A stretch of DNA of 64,000 bases from Chroococcidiopsis sp. CCMEE 29 (GCF_023558375.1 NZ_CP083761.1:4419001-4483000); one strand, 5' to 3'. Counted from the first letter of the stretch, positions 56,080-64,000 are shown. Numbers and translations are program-made. Notes: generated by a model not told the origin, from the sequence alone.

Positions 56080-56579
56080 TGCTCCCAGTTGTTTTATAGT
56101 ACTGCTGAGCGTTAGCTACGCAGGATGATTGTAACAAGCTTGATGGGATATTAAATTCAGTGTTAACAGCAGCTTTAGAATTCAAAGCGAGCAGTGAAAA
56201 TTGAACTCGCACCATTATCACAACTCATGCCATGACAAATGTAATGGTTTGAACATGATATTTATTCGATGTGGGCGAAAACTCCTTTACATAACATGAA
56301 GCTATCGAATGCAGGAGAATTGCGTGCTAAGGAATATAAAAGACAAACTTCTAGCGGATTTAGAAGCAGCTAAAAAGCACGCGTTTGGTGGGACTACACA
56401 ATCCTTTTCCCGGTCGCAGTTGGTTCTTTGTTGCAAGCCGCAAGCACAAACAGCTTCATAGCAAGCAATAAAATTGGCTGACTTCATCTAGAATCCTAAT
56501 GGTTAGGTTGATGAGCTTCGTCTTTCGGAAAATCCTGATTTTAAGCGTGTAGATATCATTGTTATATTCAGATACCGTC
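56080..56579. other. Spacer upstream of the AraC-type gene
   Basis: A GTG frame at 56324-56461 (46 codons incl. stop, AGGAG eight bases before) could encode a small peptide starting LRNIKDKLLADLEAAKKHA, not recognised. Nothing else stands out. Confidence 0.35.
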
Positions 56580-57497
56580 ATGCAGTTAGCTAATCGCGTT
56601 GCGACTCCACCACAGACACTGACCTTATCTGCCCAAAACCCCGCTCAACCTAGACTAACAGTATTTCACTCCACAGGCTGTTCAAATACTCAATCTTCAC
56701 GTCCTCATGCTCATTCGTTTTTTGAACTTTTCTTCATTGAAGAGGGTGAAGGCTGGTACTCGAGTGGTGATCGCCAAGTTTGGGCTAAACCTGGCGATCT
56801 TTTTCTCATCGCTCCTGGCAAGGTTCACGATCCCAGCGATCTCGATCACGCAACTAAGTGGATTGTTGGTTTTGGAGCTGATGCCCTTAACCCAGCGTAT
56901 ACTGATGCTGACATGTTTTTAATGCTGCCTAATCAACTGCTGGGTTCATTTCTGCACATGGAGCATGTTGAAGCTAAACACTTCTGGGTTTCCCCTGTGG
57001 AACGTCCGCGATGGTTAGCGCTGTTCCAGCAGCTAAAAAATGAACTTTGCGACCAGGAACTTGGTTTTAGAGAGGCAGCACGCGCGCTTTTAATGCTATT
57101 GCTGATTGAAACTGCTAGACTAACAACTCCCAAGTCACCTGAGTTACCTGAGTTAAAACAATCCTCTGCTCAATCTCGCCCAATTGTGAAAAAAGTTTTG
57201 TACTTTATAAATGCTAATTACTGTAATTCCATTGGGCTGCAAGAAGTAGCTGAGGCAGTCAACCTTTCTCCTGCCTACCTGACCAACCTAATCCGGCGGG
57301 AAACTGGACGGACTGTACTGAGTTGGATCGTCGAATACCGCATGGCAGAGGCACGCCGCTTGCTGCTTGAAACCGATCAATCTGTGAATCAAATTTCTGA
57401 AGCAGTAGGCTATTTTGATTCAGGTTATTTCATTCGTCTGTTTCGTCGTCTCAACAGCACAACTCCACAAGCATGGAGACTTTTGTATCGCAGCTAA
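56580..57497 (+). CDS. AraC-family transcription regulator with cupin sensor
   Basis: 305 residues from ATG 56580 (a TTG seven codons earlier is open too). The N-terminal cupin (HAHSFFELFFIEEGEGWYSSGDRQVWAKPGDLFLIAPGKVHDPSD) is a small-molecule sensor. The C-terminal double HTH has NSIGLQEVAEAVNLSPAYLTNLIRRETGRTVLSWIVEYRMAEARRLLLETDQSVNQISEAVGYFDSGYFIRLFRRLNSTTPQAWR, complete. Placed before a five-gene cluster in the same direction, with duplicated promoter-like sites in between, it is the likely activator of that cluster. Confidence 0.9.
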   Translation: MQLANRVATPPQTLTLSAQNPAQPRLTVFHSTGCSNTQSSRPHAHSFFELFFIEEGEGWYSSGDRQVWAKPGDLFLIAPGKVHDPSDLDHATKWIVGFGADALNPAYTDADMFLMLPNQLLGSFLHMEHVEAKHFWVSPVERPRWLALFQQLKNELCDQELGFREAARALLMLLLIETARLTTPKSPELPELKQSSAQSRPIVKKVLYFINANYCNSIGLQEVAEAVNLSPAYLTNLIRRETGRTVLSWIVEYRMAEARRLLLETDQSVNQISEAVGYFDSGYFIRLFRRLNSTTPQAWRLLYRS

Positions 57498-57517: not shown

Positions 57518-57586
57518 AAAAAATGACCAATTGCACAACAAAATTGTCCCTTGCGTCTAACCGCATAACTTTATAGACTGATTATC
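57518..57586 (+). promoter_or_regulatory. Promoter-like repeat R1
   Basis: AAAAAATGACCAATTGCACA, then AAATTGTCCCTTG, CTAA and, nine bases on, TTTATAGACT as a -10 candidate. 37 of the first 43 bases match R2. It begins 20 bases after the AraC gene stop. Proposed binding by the AraC-type protein is inference. Confidence 0.5.
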
Positions 57587-58010: not shown

Positions 58011-58078
58011 AAAAAATGACCACTTGCACAGAAAAAATGTCCCTTGTTTCTAAATTTTTTACTCTTTATACTAATCAT
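58011..58078 (+). promoter_or_regulatory. Promoter-like repeat R2, upstream of the AGE-like gene
   Basis: AAAAAATGACCACTTGCACA, then AAAATGTCCCTTG, CTAA and, eleven bases on, TTTATACTAAT. It precedes the AGE-like gene by 170 bases and has the better -10 of the two copies. Confidence 0.55.
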
Positions 58079-58247: not shown

Positions 58248-60257
58248 GTGAAGCAATTTACTCAAAGTACAACCCTAATGGGTTACGTGACTGAGATAAA
58301 AGAACAAGACTCTGCCTTTAGTATCAAATGCCGTAGTAGTGAAGAATTTTGGGTATATGTTGGCAGAGAAACTCAATTTCAATTCATGCAAAATCTAGAC
58401 GGTATCAACCGCGATCGCTATCCTACTCCTGAAGGTTTTTCTTGGAATTCCTCACAATTAGTTAGAAAGTATATCCAGCGCGATCGCCTGGTAGTGGTGC
58501 AAGGAGTTTACCTAGAGGACGGCGCTAATCGCCGCTTCGACGCACGTATTGTCAGCTTACTACAATCATTCAACGGTGAATTTCTGTTTGAAGAAACACA
58601 CTGGTGGATTACACAAATTGCTCGTTTAGCTGATACTTGGCTAGGCTTTTTATTTTCTAATAAAATGACCTACGAAATTGATGACTTTAAGCTTTACCGA
58701 ACCAATTTAAACATCATTGGGTTACCAATGGATGACAGCATTCAAGAAAGTTCAACTTTAGCTAGATTGATCTATGGTCTTTCTTCAGCTTACTTGTTGA
58801 CTGGATGCGAAAGTTATCTATCAGCCGCTCGTGCGGGAGTTCAATATCAACGTGAGACTTTCCGCAGCTTAACTAGCGATGGCAAGCATTGTTTTTGGGC
58901 ATCTGGCAAGCGCAAGACACAGTATAGCTATCAACTATACATGACTTCCCAAAACGACGACGATAGAGGCACAATCCCACTCTACGAGCAAATTTATGCA
59001 CTAGCTGGATTAGCTCAATACTATCGAATCACCCTAGATTGGGAAGTACTTGATGATATTCAGCGAACAGTTCGTACTTTTAATGATTTCTTTCTTGATC
59101 TCGAATCGAAGTATGGCAAGGATGCTTACGGAGATTATTTTTCTCACCTTGATTATGCAACGATGAGTTGGGATAGTCCTGCTTTGGGTGACAACCAAGC
59201 CAAGAAAAACTGGAATTCCATTGGCGATCACATCCCAGCGTATCTTGTTAACTTAATGCTTGCTCTGGAACCGCTACCAATCACTGAGGGTAACTTCGAA
59301 GAATTGCAACAGTTCCTCAATATCTGCAAAAAAATCCTCCACACCACCAGCTCCATCATCGTTGAGCAGTTTCCCGATCCAGATCCCAACGTTCCATTTG
59401 TGAACGAGCGGTTTCTCCGCAACTGGCAACCAGATCGAGCTTGGCGATGGCAGCAAAATCGTGCGGTTGTAGGACACAACTTAAAGATTGCATGGAACCT
59501 AACTCGCGTTGCTAATTACTACTACTTTATGGCTGACAAAACTGCGGCTGAGAACCCAGAAGAAGCAGAGCAATTTAAACAGTTGGCAGATAAGTTGATG
59601 AGGCTAGCAGATAAGTTAGGCGCTAGCATGGCGGAGATTGGAGTAGACCTATTCCGAGGTGGAATTTTTGATACTCTTGAGCGCAATCCTCATAATGGGA
59701 TGCCTTTGGAGTTTCCTTGGAGCAACACTAAAGACTTTTGGCAACAGGAACAAGCTCTTCTCGCTTACTTGATTCTGCATGGCTGTAGTAATGAGGATGA
59801 GACCCAAAAGCAAGAGTATTTAAGACTTGCCCAAGAAACAGCTGCCTTCTGGAATTTATTCTTTCTCGATCAGGAGAACAAAGGAGTCTTCTTCCGAGTT
59901 ACTGATGGTGGCATGCCAGTCATTCAAGGCGACTATGACAACAAAGGCGGTCATGCGATCTCTGGGTACCACGCATTCGAGCTAAATTATTTAGCTCACA
60001 TCTATATCAGTTCTTACGTGACGAAAAAACCTTTCTGCCTTTACTTCAAACCAAGTAAAACGTGTCGGCAGCGATCGCTTAATGTATTACCTGATTTCGT
60101 TAAACCCAATACCTTCCAAATCGGCCGCATCAACATTGATGGTAGCGAGCGCGATGCAATCGACCCCGATAACTTTCGGATTACGCTGAGCGATCGCGAA
60201 TTTACCCTCGGTTCAGAGGCAGAAATTGTTGTGGAACTGAAGCCTTTAAGTGCATAG
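58248..60257 (+). CDS. AGE-epimerase-like (alpha/alpha)6-barrel protein with N-terminal extension
   Basis: 669 residues. The N-terminal 110 residues are a beta-rich domain (MGYVTEIKEQDSAFSIKCRSSEEFWVYVG...VQGVYLEDGANRRFDARIVSLL), like an OB/nucleotide-binding fold. From about 115 on the protein is helical with paired helices (LARLIYGLSSAYLLTG, YEQIYALAGLAQYYRIT, RAWRWQQNRAVVGHNLKIAWNLTRVANYY with His410, FWQQEQALLAYLIL). The order and the GH...W motif are those of N-acylglucosamine/cellobiose 2-epimerases. It is much longer than the 400-aa epimerases, so a different sugar or a non-sugar substrate is possible. Start GTG with GGA eight bases upstream; first gene of the cluster. Confidence 0.65.
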   Translation: MKQFTQSTTLMGYVTEIKEQDSAFSIKCRSSEEFWVYVGRETQFQFMQNLDGINRDRYPTPEGFSWNSSQLVRKYIQRDRLVVVQGVYLEDGANRRFDARIVSLLQSFNGEFLFEETHWWITQIARLADTWLGFLFSNKMTYEIDDFKLYRTNLNIIGLPMDDSIQESSTLARLIYGLSSAYLLTGCESYLSAARAGVQYQRETFRSLTSDGKHCFWASGKRKTQYSYQLYMTSQNDDDRGTIPLYEQIYALAGLAQYYRITLDWEVLDDIQRTVRTFNDFFLDLESKYGKDAYGDYFSHLDYATMSWDSPALGDNQAKKNWNSIGDHIPAYLVNLMLALEPLPITEGNFEELQQFLNICKKILHTTSSIIVEQFPDPDPNVPFVNERFLRNWQPDRAWRWQQNRAVVGHNLKIAWNLTRVANYYYFMADKTAAENPEEAEQFKQLADKLMRLADKLGASMAEIGVDLFRGGIFDTLERNPHNGMPLEFPWSNTKDFWQQEQALLAYLILHGCSNEDETQKQEYLRLAQETAAFWNLFFLDQENKGVFFRVTDGGMPVIQGDYDNKGGHAISGYHAFELNYLAHIYISSYVTKKPFCLYFKPSKTCRQRSLNVLPDFVKPNTFQIGRINIDGSERDAIDPDNFRITLSDREFTLGSEAEIVVELKPLSA

Positions 60258-60265
60258 GAGAGCAG

Positions 60266-60967
60266 ATGATTACTGAGACACTTGAAGGCAAAAAAATTGC
60301 TGTACTCGTTGAAACTGAATATATTCCTGAAGAAATTGCGGCTTATCAAACACGCTTTCCCGAACTAGGAGCAACCGTGCATTTAATGTCTCGGCTGTGG
60401 GGTAATCAAAGCGTTCGCTTCGCAAGCGATGTCGATAGTGTAGAAGCGGCGGATAGGATCAATAGACAGGAAACGAGCCTCCCAACATTGGAAGTCAACA
60501 TTGACTTTCAGAACACAGACATTAATGAATATGCGGCTGTGATCATGGCTGCTAACTACACCAGCGTGCGTCTACGCTACTTTCAGCCACCAGAAGGACA
60601 GCCAATCAGCCCAGAACAGACTCGCACTGCCCCAGCAGTACAGTTCTTTGCCAAGGCAATGGCGAATCCCAAAATCATTAAAGGCTTGCTGTGTCATGGA
60701 CTGTGGCTGCTGACACCAATGCCGGAACTACTCAAAGGGCGACGGGTAATCTGTCATGAAGTTGTCCTTGCAGACATCGTGAATGCAGGTGCAGTTTACG
60801 TGCCATCGCCTACCAACATTGTTGTGGATGGCGACTTGGTAACGGGGCGATCGGGGCATGATGTGAATGCATTTATCGATGCGATCGCCCAACAAATCGT
60901 TCTGCAAGAAAAAGGCTTATCTCTGCTGGCTTACGAACAAATGGTATTGCAAGAAGCAGCAAGTTAA
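60266..60967 (+). CDS. DJ-1/PfpI-family protein 1
   Basis: 233 residues. The flavodoxin-like fold starts GKKIAVLVETEYIPEEIAAYQTRFPELGATVHL; the nucleophile is Cys143 in GLLCHGLWLLTP, with the usual elbow of this superfamily, and CHEVVLADIVNAGAVYV follows. An acidic residue near the N-terminus (ETEYIPEE) stands where DJ-1 proteins have their Glu partner. Members act as glyoxalase III, deglycases, hydratases or isonitrile hydratases. The start lies eight bases after the AGE-like stop, with AGGAG. It differs strongly from protein 2. Confidence 0.82.
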   Translation: MITETLEGKKIAVLVETEYIPEEIAAYQTRFPELGATVHLMSRLWGNQSVRFASDVDSVEAADRINRQETSLPTLEVNIDFQNTDINEYAAVIMAANYTSVRLRYFQPPEGQPISPEQTRTAPAVQFFAKAMANPKIIKGLLCHGLWLLTPMPELLKGRRVICHEVVLADIVNAGAVYVPSPTNIVVDGDLVTGRSGHDVNAFIDAIAQQIVLQEKGLSLLAYEQMVLQEAAS

Positions 60968-61019
60968 AGGTTTAACTCAGTCGAGTTGTAGGTAATCACT
61001 TTGATTGGAGATATCTCAA

Positions 61020-61874
61020 ATGACTAGAAAGATTTTGATCGTGCTATCTGAATGGGGTTACTGGGGAGAAGAATTAGTCGGTCCTCTTGAAACCTTCGAT
61101 GCGGCAGGATACCAGGTTGACTTTGCCACTCCAACAGGTAAACGACCGGTAGCCCTCACCCCCAGCATGGATGCTACATTTGTCGATCCACCTTTAGGTC
61201 GTCCTGTAGTCTCCTCAGAGATGGCAGAGAAGGTACGAGCCTTAGACGACCCCAACAACACCCGCTTAAATAACCCAAAAAGTCTGAGAGAGTGGTTGCC
61301 CGAAAGACCTTATTGGAGTTCACCAAAATTCCTACGGGAAATGGAAGCATACTACAGAAGGCTTGAAGAGATACGTGAGAGAGATTTAAGCCAATACGAT
61401 TCTATGTTGATCGTCGGTGGTAGCGGTCCAATGGTCGATTTGGTTAACAACCAAAGAGTTCACGCTTTGATCCTTAGCTTCTACCAAATGGATAAGCCTA
61501 TTGCTGCCGAATGTTATGGTGTACCTTGTCTTGCCTTTGCCCGTGACATCAATGATCGCAAAAGTATTATCTGGGGCAAGCACGTTACAGGTCACTGCTT
61601 GGAATATGACTACAAAGATGGTACAGGATTTATGGGAACGAACGTCGATCCTGGCTTAGGCAACATTAACTTTGGTCCCCCATTCTATCCGCTAGAGTAC
61701 ATCCTCCGCGATGCCACAGGTCCCCAAGGGCAGTTTCATGGCAATGTCGGGCATGAAGTTTCAGTGATTGTTGATTACCCATTCATTACAGGACGCTCTA
61801 CCCCGGATTCTTATGCCACTGGTCAAAGGGTAGTGGAAGTCTTAGAACACGGACTAAGACGGTACGGCTGGTAG
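61020..61874 (+). CDS. DJ-1/PfpI-family protein 2 (Hsp31-like)
   Basis: 284 residues from ATG 61020; a TTG five codons earlier is also open. KILIVLSEWGYWGEELVGPLETFDAAGYQVDFATPTGKRPVAL is the class I amidotransferase-like start of Hsp31-type proteins; MLIVGGSGPMVDLVNN, then the nucleophile Cys165 in PIAAECYGVPCLAFA. A long insert at about residues 70-125 gives it the extra cap of the Hsp31 branch. Third gene of the cluster; 52 bases follow protein 1. Confidence 0.82.
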   Translation: MTRKILIVLSEWGYWGEELVGPLETFDAAGYQVDFATPTGKRPVALTPSMDATFVDPPLGRPVVSSEMAEKVRALDDPNNTRLNNPKSLREWLPERPYWSSPKFLREMEAYYRRLEEIRERDLSQYDSMLIVGGSGPMVDLVNNQRVHALILSFYQMDKPIAAECYGVPCLAFARDINDRKSIIWGKHVTGHCLEYDYKDGTGFMGTNVDPGLGNINFGPPFYPLEYILRDATGPQGQFHGNVGHEVSVIVDYPFITGRSTPDSYATGQRVVEVLEHGLRRYGW

Positions 61875-61956
61875 CAGAGAGCAGAGGGAGCAAAGGAGGC
61901 AGGGGAGATGAAGAAAGTAAATTTCTAGCCCCTAGTCCCTAAAAGGAAACAAAGTT

Positions 61957-63666
61957 ATGGAAAAAAGAAATGGTCGGTTTGCAATTGTAGAACAATTGCT
62001 TGCAGATGGTATTCACTACATGTTCGGTAACCCTGGCACGGTTGAAGAGGGGTTTCTCGATTCGCTCAGCGATTATTACCCAGAGTTTGAATACATCCTT
62101 GCCTTACAAGAGACGATCGCGGTAGCGGCAGCTGATGGCTACGCCCGCGTTACCAAAAAGCCAACCATTGTGCAACTTCACAGTGGAGTTGGTCTAGGCA
62201 ATGGCATCGGTATGTTATACCAAGCAATGCGCGGTCATGCCCCATTAGTCGTATTAGCGGGGGAAGCTGGCACTCAATACGATGCGATGGATGCACAAAT
62301 GGCGGCAGACCTTGTAAGTATGGCAAAGCCTGTTACCAAATGGGCAACTAGAGTTCTTCATCCTGCTTCGCTGTTGCGCGTGTTGCGGCGGGCAATCAAA
62401 ATTGCTGCTACGCCTCCGATGGGTCCGGTCTTTGTTTCTCTACCGATGGATATTCTCGATGAACCGAATGAGGAAGAAGTATTTCCTACCTCGATCCCAG
62501 TGACGCGGGTTGCCCCGGAAGCAGATGCGATCGCTCAAGCAGCAGCAATGCTTGCCACAGCATCAAATCCACTCATGATTGTAGGCGACGGCGTAGCCTA
62601 TTCTGATGCCCAAGCTGAATTAACCCGCGTAGCCGAACTGATTGGCGCTCAAGTTTGGGGTGCAGACTCATCAGAACCAAATATGAGCGCTACCCATCCA
62701 CTATTTGGCGGCTTGCTGGGTCACATGTTTGGAGCAAGTAGTAGCCGCATCACATCCCAAGCTGATGTCGTTCTAATTTGCGGTACTTATGTTTTCCCTG
62801 AAGTGTTTCCCGCTTTATCAGGTGCGTTTGCTCCAGGGACAAAAACGATCCACATTGATTTAAATGGCTATGAAATAGCAAAGAACTTTCCGGTAGATTT
62901 AGGGCTGCTCAGCGATCCGAAAACGACCCTAGCCAAACTGAGCGCTCAATTAGAAAAGACATTGACCCCAGAGCAAAAACGATTAATTTATCAACGAACT
63001 ACTCAGATAGTTGAAGCTAAAAAGCAGCAAATGGTCGAGCAGTTTGAAGCTGACAAAGCCGTACATGACCTCGTACCGTTGCATCTATCGCAGTTTGCCG
63101 AGGAATTAGCTAGACATTTACCGCCAAACGCGATCGTCTTCGATGAGGCAATTACTCATTCTGAAGAACTGTGTCGCTATATTCCACCCACCACACTAGG
63201 GCATTATTTTCAAACGCGCGGCGGTTCTCTAGGTGTGGGCATTCCTGGCGCAATTGGAATTAAACTTGCCCATCCAGATAAAACCGCGATCGGCTTTACT
63301 GGTGATGGTGGTGCTATGTACACCATCCAGGCGTTATGGACTGCTGCCCATCACAATATCGATGCGAAATTTGTCATCTGCAACAATCGCAGCTATCGCA
63401 TTCTAAAGCTGAACATCTTGCAGTATTGGCAAGAGCAGCAGATCCCAGCACACGAATTTCCTGCTTCTTTCGACTTGTGCAAACCAGATATCCGGTTTGA
63501 CGAGCTAGCACGGGCAATGGGAGTGCAAGCAGTGCGCGTGGAAACATCAGAGCAGATCAAACCAGCGATCGCCCAAGCTTTGTTCCACAACGGACCTTTC
63601 CTGATTGACCTAGTAATTAGCAGCGAAGTACCTGGTACTTTGGTTAGCCCTAAGTGCGGACAGTGA
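61957..63666 (+). CDS. Thiamine-diphosphate-dependent enzyme (benzoylformate decarboxylase / acetolactate synthase-like)
   Basis: 569 residues with Pyr, central and PP domains. The catalytic Glu is Glu52 in LALQETIAVAAADGYAR; the ThDP/Mg motif starts at GFTGDGGAMYTIQALW (about residue 450) and ends VICNNRSYRIL. GNPGTVEEGFLDSL at the N-terminus is closest to benzoylformate decarboxylases. The family decarboxylates 2-oxo acids or joins two carbonyl units. AAAGGAAA is a good ribosome site. Not ScyA of the scytonemin cluster, which has other neighbours. Fourth gene of the cluster. Confidence 0.88.
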   Translation: MEKRNGRFAIVEQLLADGIHYMFGNPGTVEEGFLDSLSDYYPEFEYILALQETIAVAAADGYARVTKKPTIVQLHSGVGLGNGIGMLYQAMRGHAPLVVLAGEAGTQYDAMDAQMAADLVSMAKPVTKWATRVLHPASLLRVLRRAIKIAATPPMGPVFVSLPMDILDEPNEEEVFPTSIPVTRVAPEADAIAQAAAMLATASNPLMIVGDGVAYSDAQAELTRVAELIGAQVWGADSSEPNMSATHPLFGGLLGHMFGASSSRITSQADVVLICGTYVFPEVFPALSGAFAPGTKTIHIDLNGYEIAKNFPVDLGLLSDPKTTLAKLSAQLEKTLTPEQKRLIYQRTTQIVEAKKQQMVEQFEADKAVHDLVPLHLSQFAEELARHLPPNAIVFDEAITHSEELCRYIPPTTLGHYFQTRGGSLGVGIPGAIGIKLAHPDKTAIGFTGDGGAMYTIQALWTAAHHNIDAKFVICNNRSYRILKLNILQYWQEQQIPAHEFPASFDLCKPDIRFDELARAMGVQAVRVETSEQIKPAIAQALFHNGPFLIDLVISSEVPGTLVSPKCGQ

Positions 63667-63783
63667 CGAGTGACGAGAGAAAAACAAAATACATAACTGG
63701 TTTCTCTCTTCATTCTCTGCGTTCTCTGCCTCTGTGTGGCTCGTTAAATCATCTCTTCAACCATCACTAAAACGGAGAAAAAA

Positions 63784-64000
63784 ATGGCAACTTCTAACGT
63801 AGAACTTGTGCAAAGAATGTACGAATGCTTCAATCGCGGCGATATGGACACTATTCGCAAAGAAGTATTTGCCCCCGAACTCGTTTGGCGCTTACCTGGA
63901 CATCATCCACTTTCAGGCACTAAACAGGGTGCAGAGGAAGTCATCGCCTTCTTTGAAGAACTTAGCAGGTCGGGTATCCAAGTGGATTTGATCGGATTGG
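63784..64000 (+). CDS. SnoaL/NTF2-like protein, N-terminal part
   Basis: The first 72 codons lie in the window. MATSNVELVQRMYECFNRGDMDTIRKEVFAPELVWRLPGHHPLSG is the typical start of SnoaL-type NTF2 folds, a cone-shaped pocket used by cyclases, isomerases and dehydratases or as a ligand-binding subunit. ATG follows ACGGAGA. It begins 117 bases after the ThDP gene and continues past the window end, so the cluster may be longer. Confidence 0.8.
   Translation, partial: MATSNVELVQRMYECFNRGDMDTIRKEVFAPELVWRLPGHHPLSGTKQGAEEVIAFFEELSRSGIQVDLIGL

Follow-up and report, generated by a model that had tools for sequence, protein, structure and literature searches.

The window analysed here, a 64,000-nucleotide stretch of the Chroococcidiopsis sp. 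CCMEE 29 genome (G000:C1:4419001-4483000; 6.39 Mb in two contigs), ends inside a train of same-strand genes that encode an AGE-superfamily protein, two DJ-1 proteins (DJa and DJb), a thiamine diphosphate (ThDP)-dependent enzyme and a SnoaL-like protein, and that are preceded by the gene of an AraC-type regulator. We found that these genes belong to a larger set, the core of which is kept together in at least eight bacterial phyla. That the genes of the cluster function together is well supported. As to what they do, our tentative reading, held with somewhat less than even confidence, is that the window operon, under AraC control, represents one version of a cross-phylum cluster processing oxidised or reactive sugar-derived carbonyls, in connection with alpha-glucan storage.

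Conservation of the gene set

An earlier note on this DNA had proposed that five neighbouring genes make up one pathway; their co-conservation elsewhere would speak for it, and their being rarely neighbours would speak against it. A DJb profile scan of 84,980 species genomes returned 260 loci, and neighbour counts were made on the best 80 by DJb identity, which come from eight phyla. Within 10 kb of DJb, the ThDP gene was present in 72 of these 80 loci, DJa in 54, a GH13 gene in 54, AGE in 52, VOC in 41 and GMC in 38; in 70 loci the ThDP gene was at most 1.5 kb from DJb and on the same strand. The genes are therefore anything but rare neighbours, and the set is co-conserved far outside cyanobacteria too. 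Since the hosts include named strains (of Streptomyces, Streptosporangium, Nonomuraea, Saccharothrix, Kutzneria, Rhodoplanes elegans and Pyxidicoccus), contamination of metagenome-assembled genomes (MAGs) is not the explanation. Recurrent gene combinations were also apparent in maps of 41 loci.

Strong AGE relatives were found in 47, and strong DJb relatives in 22, of 390 Cyanobacteriia genomes. The AGE family is present in 20 of the 22 genomes holding DJb, compared with 47/390 overall (Fisher p ~1e-18, a value that overstates the significance because related genomes are not independent). The search for the gene order in other cyanobacteria, which the earlier note had called for, found the order AGE-DJa-DJb-ThDP-SnoaL-tautomerase/SnoaL-Sno3-Sno4-GMC-VOC-GH13 in Pleurocapsa CCALA 161 (L105), Amazonocrinis (L106), Aliterella (L107) and a Chroococcidiopsidaceae MAG (L123). 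In Aliterella, two open reading frames (ORFs) matching aldo-keto reductases stand between the tautomerase gene and Sno3.

Two fusions were seen in these neighbourhoods. A SnoaL-ankyrin repeat fusion recurs (L093:9608-11062, with homologues for example in L130, L138, L139, L148 and L149), and a 1054-residue protein made of carboxymuconolactone decarboxylase (CMD), EthD, VOC and SnoaL domains is encoded beside AGE and GH13 genes at L045:3250-6414.

Two architectures

The AGE genes of the 80 loci are of the window type in 16 cases and of another type in 36. The window type is accompanied by a GH13 gene of the window's GlgB-like kind in 15/16 loci, and by STAS, HATPase or SpoIIE genes in none of the 16, whereas a GlgX-like GH13 gene accompanies the other type in 35 of 36 loci, and these partner-switch genes are found in 30 of the 36. 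The p value for this split of partner-switch genes between AGE types is ~7e-9, uncorrected for relatedness. Judged by annotation and gene order rather than by protein alignment, the second type appears to have the composition of the icfG operon of Synechocystis, whose genes encode a carboxymuconolactone decarboxylase (Slr1853), a general stress protein (Slr1854), an N-acetylglucosamine 2-epimerase (Slr1855), a STAS protein (Slr1856), an isoamylase (Slr1857), the IcfG phosphatase and a kinase (Slr1861) (PMC8670252, PMC12329169, PMC3564720, PMC3726282). Expression of that operon has been connected with carbon metabolism and with salt (PMC8670252, PMC12329169), and ethanol and butanol induce Slr1854, annotated as a general stress protein (PMC3564720, PMC3726282). 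The window operon has the AGE-like, DJ-1 and GH13 genes together, as icfG-type operons do. STAS, HATPase and SpoIIE genes are absent from it, and the closest SpoIIE match in the host genome (32%) is more than 2 Mb away.

Gene layout and regulatory region

Recomputed coordinates place the five genes on the + strand with gaps of exactly the 8, 52, 82 and 117 bases that had been reported, and Pfam assigns a family to each of them, with three TPP_enzyme domains in the ThDP enzyme (Table 1). The AraC/cupin regulator is equally real, but it had been described as just upstream, and 750 bases separate it from the AGE-like gene. In the remaining 56 kb of the window, the reference proteins of the cluster gave no tblastn match at 1e-6.

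Table 1. Features of the operon and its upstream region (positions counted from the first letter of the window)
Feature	Position	Strand	Basis
AraC-type transcriptional regulator (cupin ligand-binding domain + HTH_18)	56559..57497	+	PF02311, PF12833
Candidate operator/promoter box, copy 1, TGACCANTTGCACANNAAAANTGTCCCTTG, in 68-nt near-repeat ending in TATA-like element	57523..57553	+	Genome scan
Candidate operator/promoter box, copy 2, ~200 bases 5' of AGE-like start	58016..58046	+	Genome scan; boxes in relatives
AGE-superfamily protein, 669 residues, GTG start	58248..60257	+	PF07221, AlphaFold2 model, PDB matches, invariant histidines
DJa, DJ-1/PfpI protein A, 233 residues, nucleophile motif CHG	60266..60967	+	PF01965; TIGR01382 below cut-off; nearest solved PfpI 8r3n
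DJb, DJ-1/ThiJ-like protein B, 284 residues, ATG start, E17/E18 and C165 invariant	61020..61874	+	PF17124, alignment, model
ThDP-dependent enzyme, benzoylformate-decarboxylase-like, 569 residues	61957..63666	+	TPP_enzyme N/M/C; best solved match benzoylformate decarboxylase
SnoaL-like (NTF2 fold) protein, 142 residues, cut by window end	63784..64000	+	SnoaL_2

The 20 kb past the window end were examined as L001 (L001 position = window position - 53999). The same-strand train continues there to window-equivalent positions 64311-70848 (L001:9785-16849 with the SnoaL gene included), in the order tautomerase-SnoaL, Sno3, Sno4, a zinc-ribbon-like ORF, GMC oxidoreductase, VOC and GH13. The cluster of five genes described earlier thus holds as a co-conserved set but not in size, being the front half of about twelve genes. 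The tautomerase-SnoaL protein (211 residues, L001:10312-10947) is a fusion of a 4-oxalocrotonate-tautomerase domain with SnoaL; the domain starts MPIIRV and so has the proline right after the initiator methionine that marks 4-oxalocrotonate tautomerases. Sno3 (147 residues) is without a Pfam match, and Sno4 is a SnoaL protein of 126 residues. The GMC oxidoreductase (~510 residues) is nearest to choline oxidase, pyridoxine oxidase and HMF oxidase. In the GH13 protein (819 residues, with CBM48) the PF00128 match is clear, and the nearest families, GlgB and TreZ, both score far below their cut-offs (186 bits against 577 for the GlgB equivalog). None of the cluster enzymes tested reached the cut-off of an NCBIfam equivalog. 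The ORF L001:12009-12290 (94 residues, with CxxC pairs and a zinc-ribbon likeness below threshold) ends at or overlaps the start of the GMC gene, and could be either a genuine gene or what is left of one.

Orthologues of the AraC regulator, 59-68% identical, lie 5' of the same operon in L104 (a Hyellaceae MAG), L105 and L107. Between the AraC and AGE genes of the window, a 68-nt near-repeat (57518-57585 and 58011-58078, 75% identical) holds the two box copies, each with a TATA-like element on its 3' side. A scan of the 6.39 Mb genome for the 31-bp core sequence of Table 1, run with its 27-bp core and allowing up to 3 mismatches, found these two sites only. In L123, L107, L105 and L104 a similar box stands 5' of the AGE gene, with 3, 5, 8 and 8 mismatches respectively, and shuffled stretches matched as well in 0/500 cases for each of the first three and in 7/500 for L104. 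This pattern is the one expected of a dedicated activator site, to which the AraC protein would presumably bind, and the near-repeat is a candidate AraC operator with two promoters.

The enzymes

The AGE-like protein had been said to exceed known epimerases by some 250 residues, and its 669 residues do compare with 372-425 in solved AGE enzymes. Structure prediction, which had been proposed as a check, gave an AlphaFold2 model (33 sequences; predicted local distance difference test 87.7, predicted template modelling score 0.91) with an epimerase-type (alpha/alpha)6 barrel, a beta domain at the N terminus and a beta segment at the C terminus. In this model the extra length consists of the N-terminal all-beta domain (residues ~1-105, strands between 3 and 104), internal insertions and the C-terminal segment; the N-terminal domain may be either an OB fold or a module for carbohydrate. 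The best PDB matches of the barrel are glucose-2-epimerase 8h1l, cellobiose 2-epimerases and D-mannose isomerase, with template modelling scores mostly of 0.7-0.8 by target. A profile alignment to 8h1k identifies H328 as the second histidine of the HMH motif and H410 as the GHxxE-type histidine. Both are invariant in the 33 AGE-like sequences, as is H575, which is likely the third catalytic histidine. The protein thus has the marks of the AGE superfamily: the barrel, HxH and GHxxE by profile alignment, and the third histidine by invariance only. We considered that it might be a pseudo-enzyme, and rejected this: invariance in these sequences extends beyond the three histidines to other residues of the barrel, which makes an active enzyme more likely. 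In hmmscan the protein scores 24.7 bits with PF07221, for a cut-off of 23.4, though a search of its own genome with the same model gave no match; low-scoring AGE relatives would thus be missed by the model, and protein queries were used instead. In the Hyellaceae MAG the AGE gene is split into three ORFs (L104:7243-9266) within an otherwise intact operon, through assembly error or decay.

Both DJ-1 proteins show the marks of their superfamily, C165 and E17/E18 being invariant in the DJb alignment and the nucleophile motif of DJa being read from its sequence. The solved structures nearest to the DJb model are REP24 4p5p and 1u9c, followed by glyoxalase III 4lru and Hsp31. DJa and DJb form a single polypeptide in L034, L148, L149, L150, L155, L159, L162 and L165, and because they are fused in these eight loci we consider that they work together. 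The fusion has ~520 residues; L034:8044-9627 is cyanobacterial, and the rest are from several other phyla. A local duplication as the origin of the pair was rejected: their best Pfam families differ, they co-occur across phyla, and the fused order is DJa-DJb, so that they are not recent copies of each other. In the DJb tree, the window sequence groups with Pleurocapsa and Hyellaceae (98/93), then with Amazonocrinis, Aliterella and Chroococcidiopsidaceae. Three changes are needed for Cyanobacteria and three for Actinomycetota, which fits some transfer between phyla, without proving it.

In the ThDP enzyme, E52, H75 and the GDG..N motif are invariant in 24 sequences, E52 being the cofactor glutamate.

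Proposed pathway and alternatives

The enzyme families fit a keto-sugar or a reactive dicarbonyl as substrate, and we infer an oxidised-sugar or dicarbonyl conversion. The GH13 enzyme would act on a glycogen-type glucan, the AGE enzyme would serve as epimerase or isomerase at C2, on an aldose or on a reducing end, and the flavin adenine dinucleotide-dependent GMC enzyme would convert a hydroxyl group into a carbonyl. Shifting or hydrating the resulting enol or dicarbonyl might then fall to the tautomerase, SnoaL and VOC proteins; the ThDP enzyme would cut the C-C bond adjoining the 2-oxo group, and the paired DJ-1 proteins would make a 2-hydroxy acid from a 2-oxoaldehyde product. The inducing signal would be a small molecule bound by the AraC protein in the window version, and stress or carbon-state partner switching in the icfG-type one.

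Several observations weigh against this reading. No substrate, product or mutant phenotype has been described for any of the metabolic genes. Scans for promoter and terminator consensus sequences found no more sites than in shuffles and lend no support to a single transcript. The active site of benzoylformate decarboxylase consists of Ser26, His70 and His281, and the ThDP enzyme has T28 in place of Ser26 and V283 in place of His281 in 24/24 sequences. Its reaction can therefore not be read off from that of benzoylformate decarboxylase, and its substrate is probably not benzoylformate; a plain benzoylformate (mandelate) route was rejected for the same reason, two of the three defining residues being replaced.

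A further difficulty is that SnoaL, EthD, VOC and GMC proteins would be just as much at home among the tailoring enzymes of specialised metabolism. The cluster could then make a small specialised metabolite from a sugar precursor, with the ThDP enzyme as carboligase, the GMC protein as oxidase, and SnoaL, EthD, VOC and tautomerase proteins cyclising or rearranging the product. Accessory genes do vary between genomes as tailoring genes do (repeated SnoaL, EthD, VOC, CMD, ABM, muconolactone isomerase-like, aldo-keto reductase, NmrA), and the set is strongly present in Streptomyces and other metabolite-rich actinomycetes. However, no carrier-protein, nonribosomal peptide synthetase, polyketide synthase, terpene or export gene was recognised among the annotated recurrent neighbour families (not all families are annotated). 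The core, moreover, has a glucan-active enzyme family in it, persists from phylum to phylum, and in Synechocystis is tied to the regulation of primary carbon metabolism. We regard this explanation as unlikely, though with a real chance of being right.

Alternatively, the genes may constitute a damage-control regulon, in which each enzyme removes a different stress-made sugar carbonyl and there is no linear pathway. Two DJ-1 proteins plus VOC, the stress-type partner-switch genes of the sister architecture, the solvent induction of Slr1854 (PMC3726282) and the occasional thioredoxin-reductase, aquaporin and LtrA neighbours are all in line with carbonyl repair. GH13, AGE and ThDP proteins, on the other hand, are not usual repair enzymes, and the tight pairing of DJb with the ThDP gene, together with the DJa-DJb fusions, suggests consecutive steps. 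Such a regulon seems improbable to us.

The set is also not always whole. Many Nostoc loci have only DJa-DJb-ThDP-SnoaL-VOC within 10 kb, with no AGE nearby, and AGE and DJb are ~750 kb apart in one cyanobacterial genome (G005) and on separate contigs in four others (G319, G327, G332, G360), so that two pathways may be involved. Two modules, AGE-DJa-GH13 and DJb-ThDP-SnoaL-VOC, would then be merely co-regulated, having met by chance or transfer. Yet AGE accompanies DJb in nearly all of the cyanobacteria counted above, the modules stand together in distant phyla and in both architectures, and DJa pairs with either module, besides occurring in fusion with DJb; we give this possibility little credence. 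The Nostoc-type loci L113-L122 carry a reduced DJa-DJb-ThDP-Sno3-SnoaL-VOC set, some with a GH63/MGH1-like glucosidase gene and an aquaporin-family gene nearby. Finally, a scytonemin/ebo-like or mycosporine cluster was dismissed, as the usual signature genes are not present.

Significance and comparison with known systems

A search of open-licence literature, weak evidence on this point, found no paper that describes the gene set as a pathway. The icfG operon genes are known. Apparently, neither the wider cluster across phyla nor its AraC/GlgB-like version has been described. The earlier word "undescribed" therefore holds for the pathway and not for every gene neighbourhood, since AGE, DJ-1 and GH13 are already known together from the icfG operon, of which they form the metabolic half. 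That a set of several enzymes is kept together so widely without a known substrate leaves a hole in the picture of basic bacterial metabolism. The set also offers a clue to a question open since the 1990s, namely what the icfG partner-switch operon controls, because the metabolic genes of that operon (AGE, DJ-1, GlgX) belong to the wider cluster. Perhaps, though we hold this more loosely than the reading given at the outset, photosynthetic and soil bacteria share an undescribed pathway in which a glucan-derived sugar undergoes C2 epimerisation, flavin oxidation, enol rearrangement, ThDP cleavage and DJ-1 chemistry; control of this pathway would be what the icfG partner-switch system evolved for, and its misregulation would lie behind the unexplained glucose and inorganic-carbon phenotypes of icfG mutants. 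A single AraC regulator with a defined box probably drives the window-type sister, so that experiments on induction, knock-outs and metabolites are straightforward. The DJ-1 pair, which several phyla carry as a fusion, would be a rare case for tracing a natural DJ-1 substrate from pathway context.

Compared with the icfG operon of Synechocystis sp. PCC 6803 (slr1852-slr1862), the window cluster shares an epimerase-annotated protein (Slr1855), a protein with the general-stress annotation that DJ-1 proteins are given (Slr1854) and a GH13 protein, there a debranching enzyme (Slr1857); the domain of Slr1853 is the one found fused in L045. It differs in lacking the partner-switch genes and in having the AraC regulator, the GlgB-like GH13 and the DJb-ThDP-SnoaL-GMC-VOC genes, and its AGE protein is only ~40% identical to the icfG-type AGE. 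With the Runsl_4512 glucose-2-epimerase, cellobiose 2-epimerases and D-mannose isomerase, the AGE-like protein has the barrel fold and catalytic histidines in common, but barrel identity is ~15%, and the added length includes an N-terminal beta domain. DJb resembles the glyoxalase III/Hsp31 branch in fold, nucleophile Cys165 and N-terminal glutamate, and is unlike it in belonging to the PF17124 family, in its long insertions, in its own motif AECY and in having no equivalog match. The ThDP enzyme matches benzoylformate decarboxylase of Pseudomonas putida over the full length and keeps the equivalents of Glu47 and His70, while the replacement of Ser26 by threonine and of His281 by valine, and a score of 326 bits against the NCBIfam cut-off of 493, set it apart.

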